Source: Candidatus Omnitrophota bacterium
GTDB taxonomy: Bacteria > Omnitrophota > Gorgyraeia > 2-01-FULL-45-10
DNA length: 33,972 bases
NCBI GenBank assembly: GCA_018823705.1
Contig: JAHJHP010000050.1
Span: forward strand, 1 to 33,972
Direction of reading: 5' to 3'
The position numbers were made by a program, and so were the translations under genes. Positions 1 to 28,029 of this stretch are shown here, piece by piece (the stretch's first letter is position 1; each line of letters starts with the position of its first letter). The notes below the pieces were generated by a model, which ran no database searches, had not been told where the DNA came from, and saw only the letters and a program-made list of their open reading frames with translations.

Positions 1-2879
1 AGATACGCCGGTGTAGTCATGACCTGATCGGCTAATGCTATCTTGTACATGGTTTCGAAGTCGGTCCTTAAGGTGCCTGAGTTTAAAGCCAGGTCTATCT
101 GGTTGGCTAAGTCTGCCGCTGTGAGCGTAGCGATATAACCGGCCAGGGTGTAGCCTGCGCCGTTAACCACTCCCGCGAGGTATCCCTTGTATTCGGAGGT
201 CACGCTCGTCTGGTCGGCGACAGAGATGCCTGATACTATCTCAAGAGCCGCTCCCAGGTTTCCGGAGATGATGGCGCTGTGAAGCGCAGCTGTTTTAGTG
301 AGTTCGTAGATAAAATCTGTCTTCGTGAAATAGCCAGGCTCCGTATAGTCGGCATGCTCGTTTATATACGAAGCGATGCCGCTCAGAGTATCTTTATAGG
401 CCGCATTATCAAGGCTCTGGTTCGCTACTAGAGTGCCGTACATAAGCTGAAACTGGTTCTGGAGACTGTTATCAACTATTGCCTGATGTATCTGCAGGAT
501 CATAGCTGTGCTATCGCCGCCGGAAAGCACTATAGGCAGTTGGACGGTGCCCACACCGGTGATCGTCACGCCGGTGACCTGAGAGCCGCTGGTCGTAACG
601 GTGATATAATTTTTTGCGATCCATTCCGCACGGAAACCAGTATTGGTTAATATGAGGAATGCCGCCTCTATGGCCGTATTGTCGCTGACGTCGGCCATGC
701 CCCTGAAGCTGCCAACTAGAGAATTAATAATTCCGAACGCCGTCTGGCCGTAGGCGGTAACAGTAATAGCATCGGTGCCTATCGAATAACCGGGATCTAG
801 AGCGCCCGTAGCGAACATCTTCTGCAGGTAAACATATGTCCTATCCTGGATAGCGAAACCGTTCGCCGAATAAGCCTTGTTATCGATAACAAGGTTCGGC
901 ATGAGCGCTTCGAACATCGTGCCTTCCCACGTCGGTATATAACGAAAATCGCTGCCGCCGGTATTATATGTATAGGCTCCGTTCACCGGAATTTGAGATT
1001 GCCATGTCCAGTCGTCGGGATAGACGGTGACCATACGGTCCCATACAGCCGCCGGAATGTCGCCTTTGCCTATAGCTATAAGGACGGTAGGCCTGATCTC
1101 GGTATAGATATTGCCGTAGTACGAATTTGTGAGCGCTCCCCCGACGACATCGTATCCGGTCGCCAGAAGGCCAATACCTGAGTTATAAAGCTCTCCGAAA
1201 TCCATCGCGTTATAGAGGGTATCAGCATCGGTCCTGATGCTTCCGTCGTACGCTTGCCGCACGACTTGAAGCGCGGAGGCCAGCCAGCCGTTGTCGACCG
1301 TGGAGATGAATTTATCGTCCAGGGACGGTGACGCGAGCGTCGCGACCTTGTAGTAGTTGTGAAAGAGCCCATTCCATTTATCCAGGGTTACGAGCGTTGC
1401 CAGCGTATCGGTGATCCTCTGCTGCGCGGTCGCGGCATCGATAATACCTAGCTTTTCGGCGCTAACCACGCTCATCATGTAGAGCGCAATGTCGGTAATG
1501 GACGTGTAGTCGGCGATGGTGCCGCTAACGGTGCGCCCGTTGGGCGGAAGCCAGTTCGTCCCGGAAGTAGTCATGCTCGAGAAATAGCTCCACGTACTCT
1601 GTGCGATGGCCCTCAGGGCCGTCTTCTGATCGACGGTAAGCGCAGTCGTATCGAGCTGCGCAAAAGTCGGATCTGCGATAATACCGGAAAAATTATCGTT
1701 AAGGTTTTCCCTGGAAATGATAAGCGGGACGCTGTCCATAAAATAGCTTTGAATGCAACCGTTCTCGACCGCATTCGCTATAGATATAAGAATGCTGCCC
1801 TGCGCCATGCTCAGGTAAGCCTGGGCCACGTCGCCATTATCTGTATCCACAGAATCGAGAAAACCATACGCGCCTGTGATAGCGGTGTAGTTAGTCATGA
1901 GGTTATCAATATTCTGCATCGCGGCTGCCGGAGCGACATCGAGCGCAAGGAACGAGGCATACGGAGCGATAACGCCAGCCTCGTTCATAACCCATGCGCC
2001 ATGACTCATGCCGAGCGGAGCGCAATAGTCGCGGTAAGTCAAATCGTCCGCGGGATCGGTGGCTGAAGAGATGCCCCATACGCTGCGGCCCTGTGATGAT
2101 GTCGCGACTTTAATAATGTCCTCCGCGACGAATATAGTCCGGATGCTCGCGTCACCAAAAAAATCGAGCGCCATCTTCTCCGCGGCCCATTGATCGACAT
2201 TTGCCAGCCTGAGAGCCTGAATAAGACGGTACATATCGCTTACCGCTATCTGGGCATATTCGGTAAGGATGACATTAGTGACGATCGTGCCTGTCTTTGT
2301 GACTGTAATAAAATTCGCGTCAAGCCAGGCCTTGCGGAAATTAGAATCGGTAAATATATAATCCGCATATGCATCGGAGACTCCGGAAGGGATACCGGCC
2401 GATTTGAGCGCGGCATTAAGCGCTTCCATATTGGGTATAGCGACGACACCATCCGGCAGGACAGTTATCTGGACAGGTTTGGTCGTAGATCCGTAAGTGA
2501 CGGTATTTAAATAATTCGCCGCTATCCATCGTTGGCGCTTAATCTCGTCATAGTACAGATATTCGCCGATATAAGAACCAACGCCGATGCTAGTTAAACT
2601 GTTAGCAAGGGTAATGAGCATATCAAAAACAGATAACTGCCCGTAATCGTTAAGCACGATATCCAGCGGGTCACTGGTAACATCAATAAACCCGGAGGCT
2701 ATCCACTTTGAGCGTGTATCCGGATCATAGAATAGCTGATCGGCCCAGTAACTGGCATCCCCTTCGGAAATTCCGATTCCGTCCAATTGTAATCTTAAGG
2801 TATCCCAATCGGCGAAGACCTCTCGCGATCCCATTAATACTGTGACGCATAATAGTAAGATGGTCAATAATCTCTTCAT
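1..2879 (-). CDS. Giant secreted protein with permuted glucoamylase-like domain (3' end outside window)
   Basis: I checked this frame triplet by triplet: it is open from an ATG at 2879 to the window edge, at least 959 codons, with no stop. Residues 1-24 form a signal peptide (basic start, Leu-rich core, VFA before the likely cut). A repeated module of about 60-70 residues follows, with a W-I/L-x-A/S-N-like core at Trp59, Trp118 and Trp185; it returns at Trp753 as EWIAKNYITVTTSG. Between the copies lie segments that resemble the Glycoamylase-like family (PF10091). WGISSATD (from residue 268), APYASFLALD (about 305-314) and YGFLDSVD (338-345) normally belong to the C-terminal half. SRENLNDN (about 386), STVDNGWL (526-533) and WEGTMFEALMP (651-661) normally belong to the N-terminal half. 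The order is therefore reversed. A motif I remember as DQG reads AQG at residues 359-361. A Shine-Dalgarno AGGAG lies at 2893-2897. Length, substrate and activity are unknown. Family assignment is from memory of motifs. Confidence 0.85.
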   Translation of the reverse strand, partial: MKRLLTILLLCVTVLMGSREVFADWDTLRLQLDGIGISEGDASYWADQLFYDPDTRSKWIASGFIDVTSDPLDIVLNDYGQLSVFDMLITLANSLTSIGVGSYIGEYLYYDEIKRQRWIAANYLNTVTYGSTTKPVQITVLPDGVVAIPNMEALNAALKSAGIPSGVSDAYADYIFTDSNFRKAWLDANFITVTKTGTIVTNVILTEYAQIAVSDMYRLIQALRLANVDQWAAEKMALDFFGDASIRTIFVAEDIIKVATSSQGRSVWGISSATDPADDLTYRDYCAPLGMSHGAWVMNEAGVIAPYASFLALDVAPAAAMQNIDNLMTNYTAITGAYGFLDSVDTDNGDVAQAYLSMAQGSILISIANAVENGCIQSYFMDSVPLIISRENLNDNFSGIIADPTFAQLDTTALTVDQKTALRAIAQSTWSYFSSMTTSGTNWLPPNGRTVSGTIADYTSITDIALYMMSVVSAEKLGIIDAATAQQRITDTLATLVTLDKWNGLFHNYYKVATLASPSLDDKFISTVDNGWLASALQVVRQAYDGSIRTDADTLYNAMDFGELYNSGIGLLATGYDVVGGALTNSYYGNIYTEIRPTVLIAIGKGDIPAAVWDRMVTVYPDDWTWQSQIPVNGAYTYNTGGSDFRYIPTWEGTMFEALMPNLVIDNKAYSANGFAIQDRTYVYLQKMFATGALDPGYSIGTDAITVTAYGQTAFGIINSLVGSFRGMADVSDNTAIEAAFLILTNTGFRAEWIAKNYITVTTSGSQVTGVTITGVGTVQLPIVLSGGDSTAMILQIHQAIVDNSLQNQFQLMYGTLVANQSLDNAAYKDTLSGIASYINEHADYTEPGYFTKTDFIYELTKTAALHSAIISGNLGAALEIVSGISVADQTSVTSEYKGYLAGVVNGAGYTLAGYIATLTAADLANQIDLALNSGTLRTDFETMYKIALADQVMTTPAY

Positions 2880-2979
2880 ATATTTTCTCAATCTCCTGCG
2901 TTTTGTGTGGTCAGTATCCTTAAATCTATATATTTCTATAAACATAAACAAGAAGCCCGATCGCCTAACTCGTTTGTTT

Positions 2980-3089
2980 CGGCAACCAGGCTGTCTGATA
3001 CAACGCCAGACCCTTGGTTTTGCTACGGCCGCTATGCACTCAGGCCGTAATCCCATTTGGGACGTCACCGCATCACAGCGGCTTTGCCA
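2980..3089 (-). promoter_or_regulatory. Structured 5' leader resembling a c-di-GMP-I (GEMM) riboswitch
   Basis: Read on the minus strand, the leader is closed by GGCAA (3088-3084) pairing with TTGCC (2985-2981). Inside are CCGC/GCGG followed by GACG, then two further hairpins (TCCC/GGGA and ACGGCC/GGCCGT). After these come GCAAAACC, GGGTCTG pairing with CAGAC, and AGCCTGGTTGCCG. The 3' half matches what I recall of GEMM aptamers (GCAAAGCC, GGGTCT, AGCC-GGTTGCCG). The two extra hairpins between GACG and GCAAA are not canonical, and the GNRA tetraloop is absent. It starts about 11 bases after the predicted transcription start and lies about 100 bases before the giant-protein ATG. A second helix (AAACAA/TTGTTT, about 2975-2944) follows it and could be the switching part. 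The class is uncertain; an unclassified structured leader is the alternative. Confidence 0.5.
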
Positions 3090-3106
3090 TTTCGACTTGA
3101 ATTAAG

Positions 3107-3135
3107 ATAATATCATGTGACAAAGACATTGTCAA
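3107..3135 (-). promoter_or_regulatory. Sigma-70-type promoter for the riboswitch leader and giant protein
   Basis: TTGACA (3135-3130), a 17-base spacer and TATTAT (3112-3107) make a near-perfect housekeeping promoter. The start would be near 3100. This separates the giant-protein transcript from the upstream HD-GYP gene and gives a 5' UTR of about 220 bases. Confidence 0.8.
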
Positions 3136-3177: not shown

Positions 3178-4287
3178 CTACTTACTCCAGATTTCAGGGT
3201 GACTTTTGTATGATGTTACAAATGCGGAAACGATTTGCGGATCGAATTGCGAAGACGCTTCATCCTGTATTTTGCGAAATACCTCCTCTTTAGAATAGCC
3301 TTTCTGATAGGGTCGATCCGTGGTGAGCGCATCGAAGACATCAGCCACAGCTATTATCCTGCCTTCCTTGGATATCCGAACTCCCTTCAAGCGATTGGGA
3401 TATCCTTTGCCGTCATAACGCTCATGGTGCTCAAGAATTCCGCGTCGTATTATATCAGAATCATCCATCGACTCTATTATCCTCGCGCCTATACTCGGAT
3501 GCAACCTCATCTGCCGACGTTCATAACCGAGAAGCTTTGCCGGCTTCATCAGGATGCTCTCCCTTACGCCTATTTTGCCTATATCGTGCAGAAGGCTTGC
3601 CAGCCTGAGGCTCTCCAGGGCCTCTTCATCGAGAGCCAACTCACGGCCTATGGCAACGGTATATTTCATCACACGTTCGGAGTGGCCGCTGGTGTAACTG
3701 TCTTTCGCGTCTATCGCTCTGGTCAGAGAAGTGATAGTGCTTAAAAAAAGGCTCTTCATCTTCTGATATAGCCTGGCATTCAAAAGCGCTATCGCTATAT
3801 TATTGGAAAGCGTGAGCAGCAGGTCTTTATCTTTTTTAATAAATTTATGCCCTGGACGCCCTCTGTTACTTACCATCAGAGCGCCCACAACTTTTCCCCG
3901 CGTCTCAAGGGGAACCGCCAGAAAAGATTCCATCGGGAACTTTTCACCCGAAAACGGAATTTTTTTAAATTTAAATGCCGCGTTTTTGTGGATATCATCT
4001 ACGGCGAGAGGCCTTTTGCGCTTCGCCATATAGTCGATGATCACTTCCCATCCGCCCATAAGCCTGAGATTGTCCATTTCATCTTCGCTGAAACCGTCCG
4101 CGGCGGACAATATAAAACGTTCCGAGGGCTCGTCCATTAAAAATAAGGCGGAGTGATCAGAACCCGTCGATTTGCGCAGCTCTCTCAATACAAGCTTGCT
4201 GACCTCATCCGGATCCATCGATGAATTCACAACCCGGCTCACTTCGAGTAATATCTTACCTGCCTCGTACTTACGCCTCTTTATCAT
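3178..4287 (-). CDS. GAF-HD-GYP cyclic-di-GMP phosphodiesterase
   Basis: This 369-residue protein has an N-terminal GAF sensor domain (about 15-175) and a C-terminal HD-GYP domain (about 180-365). The HD-GYP signature is intact: His202, HDIGK at 234-238, a conserved His at 263, and HHERYDGKGYP at 287-297. In this family these residues hold the metal centre that hydrolyses c-di-GMP to pGpG or GMP. No membrane segment or receiver domain is seen, so a cytosolic ligand or partner bound by the GAF domain probably controls it. The start lies 4 bases after the stop of the phosphatase gene upstream, so the two are likely co-transcribed. The next element downstream is a possible c-di-GMP-sensing leader, which makes a local signalling circuit plausible but unproven. 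Confidence 0.93.
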   Translation of the reverse strand: MIKRRKYEAGKILLEVSRVVNSSMDPDEVSKLVLRELRKSTGSDHSALFLMDEPSERFILSAADGFSEDEMDNLRLMGGWEVIIDYMAKRKRPLAVDDIHKNAAFKFKKIPFSGEKFPMESFLAVPLETRGKVVGALMVSNRGRPGHKFIKKDKDLLLTLSNNIAIALLNARLYQKMKSLFLSTITSLTRAIDAKDSYTSGHSERVMKYTVAIGRELALDEEALESLRLASLLHDIGKIGVRESILMKPAKLLGYERRQMRLHPSIGARIIESMDDSDIIRRGILEHHERYDGKGYPNRLKGVRISKEGRIIAVADVFDALTTDRPYQKGYSKEEVFRKIQDEASSQFDPQIVSAFVTSYKSHPEIWSK

Positions 4288-4291
4288 TCTC

Positions 4292-6211
4292 TTATGCCAC
4301 CTTTACGACTATGATCGTTATATCATCGTGCTGGATGGACCTGGGCTCAAAGCGCCGCACATCCTTCTCTATTTCGTCCATTATCTTATCTGCCGATAAT
4401 AACCTGTTCCTTTCAGCCGCAAGTAAAAGCCTCTCTTTGCCGTACATATCGGCCTTCGAGTTCATAGCTTCAGTGACGCCGTCAGTGTAAAATATGAACG
4501 TGTCACCCGAGCCAAAATTCGTCCGGCCTCCGGAGTACGGGCCTTCAATAAGGCCGAGCGGCGCCCCGTCGTCCACATCCAGAAATCGCGCCTGGCCTTC
4601 CTTCTTAAGGTATAACACGGGAAGATGGCCGCCGTTACCATAAATAAAAACCTTATTTTTCATATCAAATACCGAATAAAAGACCGTGACGAAAAGATTC
4701 GAGGTCGATTCCTTCATGAGTTTTATGTTAAGATTTGCCAGCACCTCCTCCGGTTTCGCGCCCGGTGAAGCGAATGTGCGAAACGCTCCTACAGACATCG
4801 CCATGAAGAGACTTGCCGGCACGCCTTTGCCGGAGACATCGCCTATCATCACGCCAAGTTTATCATCCGCAAAAGATATAAAGTCATAAAGATCCCCTCC
4901 CACCTGACGGGCGGTGAACATCGCTACAGATACGCTCAAACCCCCGATCGACGGCGTCGATTTCGGAAGAAAACTATCCTGTATTTTTTTAGCTATCTGA
5001 AGTTCGCTTTCCATCAGGAGCCCCTTTTTCCATTCAGACACATACTTGTATAGCGTAACTGAAAGGTTCAGCATGACAATAATAATGACGGGATACATAA
5101 CATCGATCCAGAATCCGTAAATATTGAATAGGAGCATGCTTGCCAGCGCCAGCAGAAATAATACGGAGAATAGATAAATAAGGCCTTTCATGGGCTTTGT
5201 CTTGAGGATAAGAACCGTCATGAGGGCGGATAAAAATATCAGTATCGCCAGATTGGCTGTCTGTGAAGCTCTCCGTATGAAACTATTTTTTATCAGAGAA
5301 TTGATAACGTCAGCATGCATACCCATAGCCGGATACATCGGATCGAACGGGGTGGGATGCAGATCGACCGTACCTATGGCGGACAAACCGACTATACAGA
5401 TCTTATCTTTCAGTAAGGAAAGATCGATAATGGGTTTGTCACCGTTAATCTTAGCCAGATACGATTGGATTATATCAACGTAAGAATAGTGCCGGTAGCT
5501 CTTCCCCCATCCGGCCGAGTAATTGACTATTATGGCTGAATCCTCGTCAAGAGGCACTTCGATTTCACGTCCCAGGGCAAGATATCTACCCGGCGCAAAC
5601 TTCATATCCTTCTGCGATATGCCGAGATAATCACACCCTGCCAGAAGCGACAGGTAGGGCGAAAGCGCATTGTCGTTATGCCGGATGAATGCGCTTGCTC
5701 GTCGGAATTTGCCATCTATGTCCGGTATGATATTTATGTGGCCGATGCCTTTGGCGGCAGAGTTAATGCCTTCGAGACACCGGGCCGCGTAAGCGCCGGC
5801 GTAAGGAATCGTCCTGAGGGCCTTCACGTCAAGATCAAATACCACCGGAAAATAAACGTTACCGGCTTTCGCTATCGCTCTGACAAATTCCGCATCTTTG
5901 TCAGAGGGTTCACTGAAAAACAAGTCAAAGAGTATGATCGACCCGCCGGATTCTGAAATAGCTTTTACGAGGAGGGTGTGATAACTTCTATCGAAAGGAA
6001 AACGTCCGAGTTTTTGTATCGTGTCATCGCCGATCTCTATTATCACTATCTTATCCGAAGCGGGAATGTTCCCGCGGATAAGAAATCTAAGGTCGAGCGT
6101 CTCGAGCTCATAACTATCCAGGATACGAAAGTATGAACCGGCAAGAATAGCGAACGCTATTACAGCGAGGGAGATGAAGCCTGTTATTTTTCTAAAGGAT
6201 TCTGTCTTCAC
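4292..6211 (-). CDS. CHASE2-domain PP2C (SpoIIE/RsbU-type) serine phosphatase
   Basis: Residues 10-30 are a membrane anchor. About 35-310 form a CHASE2 extracytoplasmic sensor. Three membrane helices follow at about 322-338, 345-362 and 368-388, then a cytoplasmic PP2C domain of the SpoIIE type (about 405-639). Metal-binding motifs are visible: GGDLYDF from 438, GDVSGKGVPAS from 457, FYTDGVTEA, and QHDDIT near the C-terminus. In partner switching such phosphatases remove phosphate from a STAS antagonist. The likely partner is the STAS protein at 8601-8936, with the kinase at 8950-9399. The start codon is GTG at 6211; no strong Shine-Dalgarno is seen before it. The gene follows mlaD after a 103-base gap that holds a perfect palindrome. 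Confidence 0.93.
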   Translation of the reverse strand: MKTESFRKITGFISLAVIAFAILAGSYFRILDSYELETLDLRFLIRGNIPASDKIVIIEIGDDTIQKLGRFPFDRSYHTLLVKAISESGGSIILFDLFFSEPSDKDAEFVRAIAKAGNVYFPVVFDLDVKALRTIPYAGAYAARCLEGINSAAKGIGHINIIPDIDGKFRRASAFIRHNDNALSPYLSLLAGCDYLGISQKDMKFAPGRYLALGREIEVPLDEDSAIIVNYSAGWGKSYRHYSYVDIIQSYLAKINGDKPIIDLSLLKDKICIVGLSAIGTVDLHPTPFDPMYPAMGMHADVINSLIKNSFIRRASQTANLAILIFLSALMTVLILKTKPMKGLIYLFSVLFLLALASMLLFNIYGFWIDVMYPVIIIVMLNLSVTLYKYVSEWKKGLLMESELQIAKKIQDSFLPKSTPSIGGLSVSVAMFTARQVGGDLYDFISFADDKLGVMIGDVSGKGVPASLFMAMSVGAFRTFASPGAKPEEVLANLNIKLMKESTSNLFVTVFYSVFDMKNKVFIYGNGGHLPVLYLKKEGQARFLDVDDGAPLGLIEGPYSGGRTNFGSGDTFIFYTDGVTEAMNSKADMYGKERLLLAAERNRLLSADKIMDEIEKDVRRFEPRSIQHDDITIIVVKVA

Positions 6212-24310: not shown

Positions 24311-25753
24311 CTAAGACAATTTGTCCAGGATCGAGCCGAGCGACACCAGCGCTACAGTCGTCTGTTGATCGGATAATGCGTAGGGTATTATAACCGTATC
24401 GCCATGGACCATTGAGCCGCATGAATAGACTACGTTTGGGACATACCCGGAACGGCTTTCATCTATCCAATGGATAAGAGGCTCTTTCAATCGGCCGAGT
24501 ACGCGCGAAGGATCCTCGCGGTCAAGCAGGGCCGCCCCGATCGAATATTGACGCATCGGCCCCACTCCATGCGTCAGCAAAAGCCACCCGCGTTCAGTCT
24601 CAATAGGAGATCCGCAATTTCCGATCTGCACAAACTCCCAGGGATATAAAGGCTCCATGATCGGAACAGCTTCATGCCAGAAATGGACATTATCGGAATA
24701 CATGAGGAAAAGGTTCTCGTTATCGTTGCGGGAGATCATCGCATAACGGCCGTTTATCTTACGCGGAAACAAAGCCATTCCTTTGTTGACAGCCGCGCGG
24801 CCGTTCAAAGTGATCATCTTGAAATGGGTAAAATCTTCCGTCTCCATTAATTGCGGAAGGATGAACTTCCCGTCATACGCCGTATATGTGGCATAGTATC
24901 GTCCGCTACCGTTATCATCTCTAAAAAAGACGAAACGCGCATCCTCTATGCCATTCTGCTCGCTCGGGGAGAACGGGAATAGAACACGCTCTGAGAGAGG
25001 CGGCGACGGATCGAAGGATGCCTCGTAATTACATCTGGCAAGCCACATGATCTTTTCGCAGGTAAGCCTGTCCGTCTGAGTTATAGGATCATGTCCGGCT
25101 TCATAGACCCCGACATTATCCTGCAAGGTGCCCATCTTAAATTCGTCCGGCAACGTATCCATAATACTGCTTGAGCAGTCGTTCGCCAGCCCCATTTCGT
25201 AGAGCTTCCCGATGAAACATATCTTGTCGTAAAGCGCACTGGGTTTCAGTTTGGCGGTACAAGCTAAGCCGGAATCCTTGTCAATTATGACAGACCCGCC
25301 TTTATCTATTATCCCGGAACGGAATGTCAACGCAGAGATATGCCCTTCGCCTGTTGCGCGCAAAGAAATAATAAAACGCAAGGATCCTGCGGGAAGATCG
25401 GATTGATCGGGATGCGCCACAATGGAAGGATTGAAGAGGGCCGTTGATTCGTATGAACGCTCGCCGATGAAATACGCCCCGATGAGAAGTATGCGCATTT
25501 TTGAAGGCGCGAGATCAGGAGGCATATATGCCCGGATGATCTCATATTGGCGCGCGAGGATAGCATCGAGATTATGATGTCTGGAGGAAAAATCGCGCTC
25601 AATTTTAGTTAATTCTTTTTCGGCGGCGGATTCATCGAGCGCCATCACGCGCGAAACGATCTTTGGGATGCGCGAGTGATCACCGGGGATATACGGCCTG
25701 ATGATGACACATTCACGATCCGGACTGATGACCACGCCGGTATTCTTTATCAT
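24311..25753 (-). CDS. GH130-like glycoside phosphorylase/hydrolase
   Basis: This 480-residue protein has a five-bladed-propeller pattern of GH130. Visible motifs are NGIEDARFVFF (about 272-282), KGMALFPRKINGRYAMI, GNCGSPIETERGWLLLTHG, and VVYSCGSMVHGDTVIIPYA. Known members phosphorolyse or hydrolyse beta-mannosides, often beta-1,2-linked. An extra N-terminal region of about 150 residues precedes the propeller. Its ATG overlaps the stop of the preceding gene by 4 bases, so the two are translated together. Which sugar it acts on cannot be told from sequence alone. Confidence 0.87.
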   Translation of the reverse strand: MIKNTGVVISPDRECVIIRPYIPGDHSRIPKIVSRVMALDESAAEKELTKIERDFSSRHHNLDAILARQYEIIRAYMPPDLAPSKMRILLIGAYFIGERSYESTALFNPSIVAHPDQSDLPAGSLRFIISLRATGEGHISALTFRSGIIDKGGSVIIDKDSGLACTAKLKPSALYDKICFIGKLYEMGLANDCSSSIMDTLPDEFKMGTLQDNVGVYEAGHDPITQTDRLTCEKIMWLARCNYEASFDPSPPLSERVLFPFSPSEQNGIEDARFVFFRDDNGSGRYYATYTAYDGKFILPQLMETEDFTHFKMITLNGRAAVNKGMALFPRKINGRYAMISRNDNENLFLMYSDNVHFWHEAVPIMEPLYPWEFVQIGNCGSPIETERGWLLLTHGVGPMRQYSIGAALLDREDPSRVLGRLKEPLIHWIDESRSGYVPNVVYSCGSMVHGDTVIIPYALSDQQTTVALVSLGSILDKLS

Positions 25754-28029
25754 TCCTCCAGGGGCTCCTTAAGGCTTTCGAGGACATTTCCCATCTGCGT
25801 CATCTCGGCCAGCGACAAAAAAAATGAAAGCGTGGATTCAGCGCCTTGATTACGGTTTACCCTATTTACATGAAGCCCGTCACAGCAACCCCCGGTCACC
25901 GGGTCGTACAAGGAAATGCCGAGATCGTTGCTTCCGAGGAACCATTGAAATACTTTTGAGGCCTCATCACGCCACATCTTGTCTTTTGTGATGCGATAGG
26001 CTTCGAGACATGCCGAAATAGTAGCGTGGGCTTCTATCGGCTGCTGATCAAAGAGAGGCTTTACGTCGCCACGAGTGTACGTGCCGTCCGTACCTACCGG
26101 CTCAAAATGGCCGCGAGCAGAAGTCTGCACATTTACAAGCCACTTTAGCGCCTCCAGCCCGGCTTTTAGTATTTCCTCGTTATTCAGGTCGTGTCCGCTC
26201 GCCAGGAGCGCGTGAGGTAATTTGGCGTTGCAATACGCCAAAGATGATTCAAACCATAGCCATTGCGCATTACCATGCGCCTTATAAAGATCATGAAGCC
26301 GCGCAGCGAGTGTCTGCAGATAACTACGGACAAGCCTGTCTCCGGGGAAACGCTGTAGGTACTCATGTATACCGAGCAATATGAAAGCCCATGCGCGCGG
26401 CGAAGTGAATGACACTGAAGACGCAAGGGCCTTTTCAAACAGCTCAACCGACATCTGAGAAAATCCTTCGTTTTTAAATTGGCCGATGCAGGAACCGAGA
26501 GCCCATAGCGCCCTGCCATGGCAATCTTCGCTGGGCACCCCTTCTTTCCAATTTCGCTGGAAAGTAAGGAAATTCCTAAACCGGAGGATAGACGGGTCCC
26601 AGGCATACATGACAAATCCAAGGTATCGGCTCGCGAGATCGCTGATCTTAATAGGATTTATGGTACCTAACCCCTCGAGTAAAACCGTCAGGATGAGCGC
26701 CCGGGCATTGTCATCCGTGCAATACCCTTCTGAAAAGTTCGGGACATTGAACGTGGCGTGCTGGAAGATCCCGATGGAATCGGTCATCCTCATGAGATGG
26801 TCGAGCTTTATATCCGGTAATTCGGGAAACTGCTGTTCAAGAGAATGCATTGTTATCTTTTTTTGCGTCACGATAGGGCTCTTCATCTTCGCGTCTTTGA
26901 ATACCGACGCGTATTTTGACACCACATTGTTCCATGTCATCTCGCGGCCCAATATATAAGCGTTCTTGCGCATCGAGTTACGTTCGTTTTCGTTCATGAT
27001 AAGCTTTTTAATCGCTTGTCCTGTCTCTTCCGGATTGTTGAAAGACACAAGGATACCCTTGCCGTCACCGAGCAATTCGGCGGCATGCCAATAGGGAGTT
27101 GAAATAACCGCATTTCCTACGCCGAATGAATAGGCAAGCGTCCCGGAAGTTATCTGCGCTTCCTGCAAGTACGGAGTGATATAGATATCAGCGATTACAA
27201 GCAGTTCCTTAAGTTCTTCAGGGGACACAAACCGGTTATGGAAAATGACATTCCGCGAGATCTTTAGCTCATCGCAAAGACGCTGCAATAAAAGCCTGTA
27301 CGCTTCACCTTCATGCCTTAACAGATTTGGATGCGTAGCGCCGACGACTATATATACGGCGTTAGGATGATCTTTTATAATTTCGGGAAGCGCCCGCAAT
27401 ACAACCTCAATGCCCTTGTGCGGAGCAAGCAGCCCGAACGTCAGGAGGACGGTCTTGCCTTCCACCCCATATTGTTCTTTGTAAAAACTGGGATCGATAA
27501 AAGGAATGTCGGGTATTCCATGGGGGATCAATAATATTTTCGAATTATCTACCGTGTATTCAGACTGAAGAATATCTACAGCCTTTTGCGTCATTACAAC
27601 CACGTAATCAGACAGGCCAAGCAACTCGTTCTTTACGCGTCTCTGGCGCGAAGATGGATTCTGCAATATTGTATGAAGGGTCGTCACAATAGGCATCTTC
27701 AACTGGCGTAATAATGTCAATATGTAACTGCCCGCGTCTCCTCCGAAAATGCCAAATTCGTGTTGAAGGCAAACGACATCGATATTGTTAAGGTTCAGGA
27801 AATCCGCTGCCGCTTTATACGAGTCTATATCCTGCTCTTTGATCTCGAAACGTACGCGGTCCGGATAATTGTAGCCTTCCTCGATATCTGTTACGGGTAT
27901 AGCGAGTACCTGCACAGAGGGATGAAGGGCTGCGAACGTCTCGCAGATATCTGTGGTAAACGTAGCTATACCGCAACGCCGCGGGAGATAATTACCTATG
28001 AATGCTATTTTCTTGATCTCATTGGCCAT
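25750..28029 (-). CDS. GT4 glycosyltransferase fused to a C-terminal six-hairpin-like domain
   Basis: Two parts make up this 759-residue protein. Residues 1-375 are a GT4 glycosyltransferase (NYLPRRCGIATFT, VCLQHEFGIFGG, FGLLAPHKGIE, ITPYLQEAQITSGTLAYSFG). Residues about 400-750 are a helical domain with PNFSEGYCTDDNARAL near 435, resembling alpha/alpha six-hairpin glycosidases. The pair suggests a transferase coupled to a domain that binds or trims the product. It is the first gene of the glycan operon, overlapped by the GH130-like gene. The Shine-Dalgarno is weak (AAGGAC about 17 bases upstream). Confidence 0.88.
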   Translation of the reverse strand: MANEIKKIAFIGNYLPRRCGIATFTTDICETFAALHPSVQVLAIPVTDIEEGYNYPDRVRFEIKEQDIDSYKAAADFLNLNNIDVVCLQHEFGIFGGDAGSYILTLLRQLKMPIVTTLHTILQNPSSRQRRVKNELLGLSDYVVVMTQKAVDILQSEYTVDNSKILLIPHGIPDIPFIDPSFYKEQYGVEGKTVLLTFGLLAPHKGIEVVLRALPEIIKDHPNAVYIVVGATHPNLLRHEGEAYRLLLQRLCDELKISRNVIFHNRFVSPEELKELLVIADIYITPYLQEAQITSGTLAYSFGVGNAVISTPYWHAAELLGDGKGILVSFNNPEETGQAIKKLIMNENERNSMRKNAYILGREMTWNNVVSKYASVFKDAKMKSPIVTQKKITMHSLEQQFPELPDIKLDHLMRMTDSIGIFQHATFNVPNFSEGYCTDDNARALILTVLLEGLGTINPIKISDLASRYLGFVMYAWDPSILRFRNFLTFQRNWKEGVPSEDCHGRALWALGSCIGQFKNEGFSQMSVELFEKALASSVSFTSPRAWAFILLGIHEYLQRFPGDRLVRSYLQTLAARLHDLYKAHGNAQWLWFESSLAYCNAKLPHALLASGHDLNNEEILKAGLEALKWLVNVQTSARGHFEPVGTDGTYTRGDVKPLFDQQPIEAHATISACLEAYRITKDKMWRDEASKVFQWFLGSNDLGISLYDPVTGGCCDGLHVNRVNRNQGAESTLSFFLSLAEMTQMGNVLESLKEPLEE

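Follow-up and report, generated by a model that had tools for sequence, protein, structure and literature searches.

A predicted c-di-GMP-I riboswitch with two hairpins inserted beside the ligand pocket precedes an exported-protein gene in Omnitrophota

Introduction

The c-di-GMP-I aptamers are among the best-studied riboswitch classes. In the related GEMM-Ib cGAMP riboswitches of Geobacter, position 20 is an A. Vc2 of Vibrio cholerae (GEMM-I, Rfam RF01051) is built of the helices P1, P2 and P3, with P2 capped by a GNRA tetraloop; its ligand is contacted by G20, A47 and C92, and C44 forms an interhelical pair with G83 (PMC4744006). A47 intercalates between the two guanines of the ligand (PMC4744006, PMC3764141), while A49 contacts the G45-C22 pair beneath it (PMC3764141). 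The models c-di-GMP-I-UAU (RF03168) and c-di-GMP-I-GGC (RF03167) belong to the same clan, and their consensus has no tetraloop receptor in P3. Tandem c-di-GMP-I riboswitches such as Bc3-5 repeat whole aptamers (PMC4759541). In the library models of c-di-GMP-I, P2 is known only in its compact form.

Here, a leader on the minus strand of a 33,972 nt contig from a Candidatus Omnitrophota bacterium was analyzed (the window, meaning this whole stretch of DNA). It resembles Vc2 in the arrangement of P1, P2 and P3, in the GNRA-capped P2, in the GAC segment that includes C44, in G83 and in the three ligand contacts. Unlike in Vc2, two hairpins (40 nt) are inserted between C44 and G45, giving a predicted four-way junction, and P3 is without the 11-nt tetraloop receptor. 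The latter is shared with RF03168 and RF03167, neither of which includes inserted hairpins. With the Geobacter GEMM-Ib riboswitches the leader has the aptamer scaffold in common but not the A at position 20, which is a G. It falls into the ligand family of Bc3-5, whereas it consists of one aptamer with extra helices and not of repeated aptamers.

Results

The leader is situated between two genes that are both read from the minus strand. Upstream lies a GAF + HD_5 gene (3178..4287), which carries the motifs HD and HHExxDGKGYP and putatively encodes a c-di-GMP phosphodiesterase of the HD-GYP type. A CHASE2-SpoIIE phosphatase gene (4292..6211, domain match) is located 5' of it. The order SpoIIE-type phosphatase, HD-GYP, riboswitch and exported-protein gene is kept in a genome of the same genus (G001) and in one of the same family (G015), so that the phosphatase gene has this position in all three genomes. 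By motif match, a sigma-70-type promoter was found at 3107..3135 (minus strand), with a -35 box TTGACA at 3135-3130, a spacer of 17 nt and a -10 box TATTAT at 3112-3107 that is preceded by TG; 11 of 12 box positions correspond to the consensus. The aptamer starts 8 bases past the -10 box, and a similar TTGACA-N17-TATACT was seen at the equivalent place of the orthologous G001 leader. The gene downstream (3..2879, minus strand, ATG at 2879) encodes an exported protein in which the domains Glycoamylase (PF10091) and DUF3131 (PF11329) were matched and whose N-terminus was judged by eye to be signal-peptide-like. The gene is interrupted by the edge of its contig, which is the window (C43). An exact 51-base match to the beginning of contig C44 suggests that, once C43 and C44 are joined, the full protein has about 1,730 amino acids. 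The orthologues have at least 1,435 (G001, contig edge) and 2,971 (G015) amino acids.

A reading made earlier from the sequence only had proposed a consensus promoter ahead of the leader and an HD-GYP gene upstream of it, both of which were recovered here. Its giant secreted protein was retained as a protein with a signal-peptide-like N-terminus, while "giant" has to be qualified, given the suggested length and the gene running off the contig. Relatives of the central region of the exported protein are included in open frames of 10,168 amino acids (L050, G000:C89) and 11,305 amino acids (L036, G003:C12). Elsewhere in the window, an nhaA-I RNA (RF03057, 45.1 bits) was detected at 28155-28102 (minus strand), 5' of a glycosyltransferase gene (25750-28029); no obvious Na+/H+ antiporter gene is found there.

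Infernal searches with the Rfam c-di-GMP-I models and with a model built from homologous leaders (R2) were performed, as the sequence-only reading had proposed for its GEMM-like aptamer. RF01051 matched a 122-nt aptamer at 2977..3098 (minus strand) with 40.5 bits, above its gathering score of 35 (E 9.5e-05 over the whole window), and R2 matched this aptamer with 92.4 bits. On the level of sequence this confirms the leader as a c-di-GMP-I aptamer, and we infer c-di-GMP as its ligand. The match to RF03168 (39.7 bits) stayed below the cutoff of 65.9; RF03167 did not appear among the window matches listed, where weaker matches from one clan are masked, and reached 30.1 against 59 in the orthologous G001 leader. 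Weak Rfam matches to Plastid-psbM, Pestivirus SLI and isrK in the leader were at chance level and were discarded.

The conserved parts were assigned on the minus strand, with Vc2 numbering placed on the window by our own alignment. The upper P2 hairpin GCCGCU-GUGA-UGCGGU (3067..3082) was supported by folding and by homologues: it is 98.9% paired in 76 homologues, all 76 of which have a GNRA loop. In the window this tetraloop is GUGA (3076-3073), closed by a U-U mismatch. It is followed by the conserved GAC (3064..3066), which reads GAC or GGC in 67/76 homologues and includes the C44 equivalent at 3064. Together with G2991 as the G83 equivalent, C3064 is predicted to form the interhelical Watson-Crick pair. 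The G20-equivalent ligand contact, in the RF01051 alignment, is the G at 3088 (G in 71 of the 76), the A47 equivalent is 3021 (AAA at A47-A49 in 75/76) and the C92 equivalent is 2982; the ligand-binding elements are thus retained.

P3 (2984..3019, minus strand) is continuous, and its 3' strand is common to the terminator described below. The CUAA half of the tetraloop receptor occurs in 9/40 canonical and 21/76 variant aptamers of the phylum (Fisher p 0.66), so that the junction as a substitute for the missing receptor was rejected. Since this half is missing in 31 of the 40 canonical relatives, the receptor does not discriminate within Omnitrophota. A motif near GAUCGCCGAGCGCACCGACAACG recurs in the distal P3 of several aptamers (L022, L031, L085, L151, L239).

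Between the GAC and GC-AAA, i.e. between C44 and G45, lies the 40-nt insert, which interrupts P2. It is formed by the hairpins H1 (GUCCC-AAAU-GGGAU, 3050..3063) and H2 (UACGGCC-N12-GGCCGUA, 3024..3049), both on the minus strand and both supported by folding and covariation. The P2 internal loop (AAA/GAC) under the ligand pocket would thereby become a four-way junction of P2 base, upper P2, H1 and H2. Since the aptamer folded alone as a single sequence was not significant (z -1.5), the evidence is comparative. A first model (R1) was made from three sequences, with the long H2 loop of G001 excised for the alignment, and was applied to 384 genomes from the class; the inserts aligned were repeatedly two hairpins between GAC and GC, with unrelated sequences. 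In 76 homologues the 32 pairs were 96.9% paired, with a covariation score of 0.772 compared to 0.226 in shuffles (0/500 reached the observed value) and a maximum of 0.155 in slid controls. H1 was paired in 99.5% of cells with two-sided changes at 5/5 pairs, and H2 in 95% with two-sided changes at 7/7 pairs. The two hairpins between GACG and GCAAA that had been read from the window were thus found again in its homologues with strong covariance, the lack of which would have spoken against them.

In the leaders L034:1220-1435 and L167:984-1199 of G001, about 110 nt including a CATTCTGAGCGA-type repeat are accommodated in the H2 loop, and the H2 stem is retained. L087:1001-1130 (G056) is a different insertion, in which one aptamer carries two hairpins in the P2 loop and not at the C44/G45 site.

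The 76-sequence alignment was fitted to the structure model and is biased toward that structure. Therefore, pattern scans of 197 genomes, which specified nothing beyond the P2 hairpin, GRC, a gap (0-30, 31-60 or 61-90) and GCAAARC, and separate folding of the inserts served as an independent check. All 55 distinct complete inserts from the scans folded into exactly two helices, with a mean folding-energy z of -4.8, and 45 of them left no base unpaired outside the helices, compared to 0.4% of shuffled inserts. Of the 150 matches listed for the 0-30 gap, 141 had no insert at all and none had a one-hairpin insert; the other nine, read by eye, were a 1-base insert or stopped inside a two-hairpin insert. 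Three-hairpin inserts were not found in the scans of the 197 genomes, L256 being an overshoot past the true GCAAA. Accordingly, in the scans made the C44/G45 site of the aptamers is either empty or holds exactly two flush hairpins.

How the insert is to be parsed was further considered for the window itself. The Rfam alignment treats the leader as an ordinary c-di-GMP-I aptamer with a longer P2, in which the partner of GCCGCU is AGCGGC, at the distal end of the insert, and 42 bases become an elaborated loop. Constrained to this form, the window alone is slightly more stable (-40.3 kcal/mol, compared to -38.2 for the full four-way model), and the longer P2 appears in the centroid; the pair probabilities of upper P2 (0.35) and H2 (0.46) are low in the window. 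As these energies leave the four-way junction unsettled, the case rests on the homologues, which, as well as the minimum-energy fold, disagree with the assignment by Rfam. The short GNRA-capped P2 before the GAC is kept in 76/76 homologues and in the leaders of G001 and G015, every pair of H1 and H2 shows covariation, and upper P2, H1 and H2 all exceed a pair probability of 0.5 in 64/76 homologues. The extended-P2 parse was hence rejected on comparative grounds despite its slight energy preference, and an ordinary aptamer with a longer P2 appears quite unlikely. An apparently simple 79-nt c-di-GMP-I aptamer in the G015 orthologue was a mis-parse as well, since R1 and R2 both give the full variant aptamer.

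With the four-way junction, the insert might still do something else than shape the aptamer. A role of H1 and H2 as an additional sensor, responding to another metabolite, a protein or a base-pairing partner and giving the switch two inputs, would fit the fixed site on the pocket side, the constant number of two helices, hairpins of up to 49 nt and the repeat-like sequence in the H2 loop of G001. A shared ligand site would, however, need a conserved loop or internal-loop sequence, and none is visible across the set, which makes this unlikely. It is very unlikely that the junction reshapes the site for another cyclic dinucleotide such as cGAMP: the insert does adjoin G45, and A49 contacts the pair of this residue beneath the ligand (PMC3764141), but the equivalents of G20, A47 and C92 are kept in the window, and the G at position 20, kept in most homologues, argues against cGAMP. 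The CATTCTGAGCGA element in the G001 H2 loop could also point to a mobile repeat that landed in the leader by chance. This reading, of next to no probability, is already contradicted by the identical nucleotide position across many families and more than one class, by the flush stems and by divergent sequences with compensatory changes.

An intrinsic terminator (2940..2992, minus strand, fold z -3.8) overlaps the 3' strand of the aptamer. Its 12-bp stem AGCCUGGUUGCC / GGCGAUCGGGCU is followed by UUCUUGUUUAUGUUU. AGCCUGGUUGCC is the 3' strand of P3/P1 and doubles as the 5' arm of the terminator. Because 46% of shuffles passed a first, too permissive terminator test, a stricter overlap score was used; it is 27.5 in the window, a value reached by about 0.03% of shuffled controls. 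A score of at least 22 was obtained for 26/77 homologous leaders compared to 0.23% of shuffles, i.e. a clear overlapping terminator is found in only about one third of them; the arrangement is kept in G001 and G015. When the leader was extended past the terminator, the predicted fold traded P2 base and P3 for the terminator. Several canonical and variant leaders (L105, L109, L111, L132, L237, L238) contain a second copy of the aptamer 3' strand (e.g. GAUAGCCGAGCUACCGAA) 20-60 nt downstream, which is able to pair with the terminator and may be a strand-exchange platform.

The second model gave matches in further classes of Omnitrophota. When 84,980 species genomes were scanned with a pattern, 35 matches were obtained, of which 33 loci were also matched by the model and two (L182, L191) were not. 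Nearly all species-genome matches belong to Omnitrophota, and the complete genome of Candidatus Velamenicoccus archaeovorus is among the genomes matched. Two matches deposited as Clostridia belong to a six-genome phylum distinct from Omnitrophota, and one comes from a MAG labeled, as deposited, Vampirovibrionales. Judged by these matches, the variant has a wide distribution in Omnitrophota and extends to one other small phylum. In this six-genome phylum (L286, L287, L288, L291), partly deposited as Clostridia, 10-12 c-di-GMP-I model matches per genome were obtained in three of the six genomes, and the variant is present too.

Canonical c-di-GMP-I aptamers are also frequent in the class: matches to c-di-GMP-I were obtained in 51 of 57 relatives, and a single canonical copy is present in the host genome. 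In L116, one strand carries a canonical (1353-1431) and a four-way-junction aptamer (1501-1625) in tandem. Of 40 sampled loci that had been fetched for the variant, Rfam at gathering cutoff called 18, with the 5' half misplaced in some of these, and c-di-GMP regulons are therefore under-called in Omnitrophota. In Rfam 15 and the open-access literature, no description of the two-hairpin variant or of Omnitrophota c-di-GMP riboswitches was found. The two-hairpin four-way-junction build is thus apparently undescribed, in line with the new aptamer variant that the sequence-only reading had put forward.

Discussion

Taken together, we consider the leader to be a transcriptional ON riboswitch for c-di-GMP, in a variant form with two end-to-end stacked hairpins between C44 and G45, and give this reading, which is drawn from sequence comparison, a probability of about 0.82. 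Without ligand, AGCCUGGUUGCC would pair with GGCGAUCGGGCU in the nascent RNA and transcription would stop ahead of the gene. Binding of c-di-GMP would keep the AGCCUGGUUGCC strand in P3 and P1, so that the terminator is blocked and the exported protein is made. Since ligand binding and termination would be mutually exclusive, the predicted direction of control is most likely ON with c-di-GMP. The seven GGDEF genes of the host genome and the HD-GYP neighbor would be the signal side, the neighbor, if active, lowering the same signal.

The role of H1 and H2 is most likely structural, since they have no conserved sequence while their geometry is conserved. They would set or stabilize the pocket or the folding kinetics and would not be a second sensor. 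Two flush helices beside the pocket, never one or three in the scans, are a clear rule that wants a structural reason. Two helices bring the chain back near its start and one does so less easily, which would explain why there are two or none.

A strongly hydrophobic segment at the N-terminus was counted in 58 of 77 downstream reading frames and a prepilin-like motif in 11, both by simple heuristics and without a background rate. By these predictions, the genes under control appear to encode exported and surface proteins, which c-di-GMP also controls elsewhere. It is possible, though tentative, that the flush junction has been selected separately, as a c-di-GMP aptamer architecture that differs in its binding or folding behavior (affinity, kinetics, ligand choice or a second input via H1/H2), used phylum-wide in Omnitrophota for the control of exported surface and pilin-like proteins. 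The riboswitch proposed here would offer a concrete model of how large exported proteins are switched on in this uncultured phylum.
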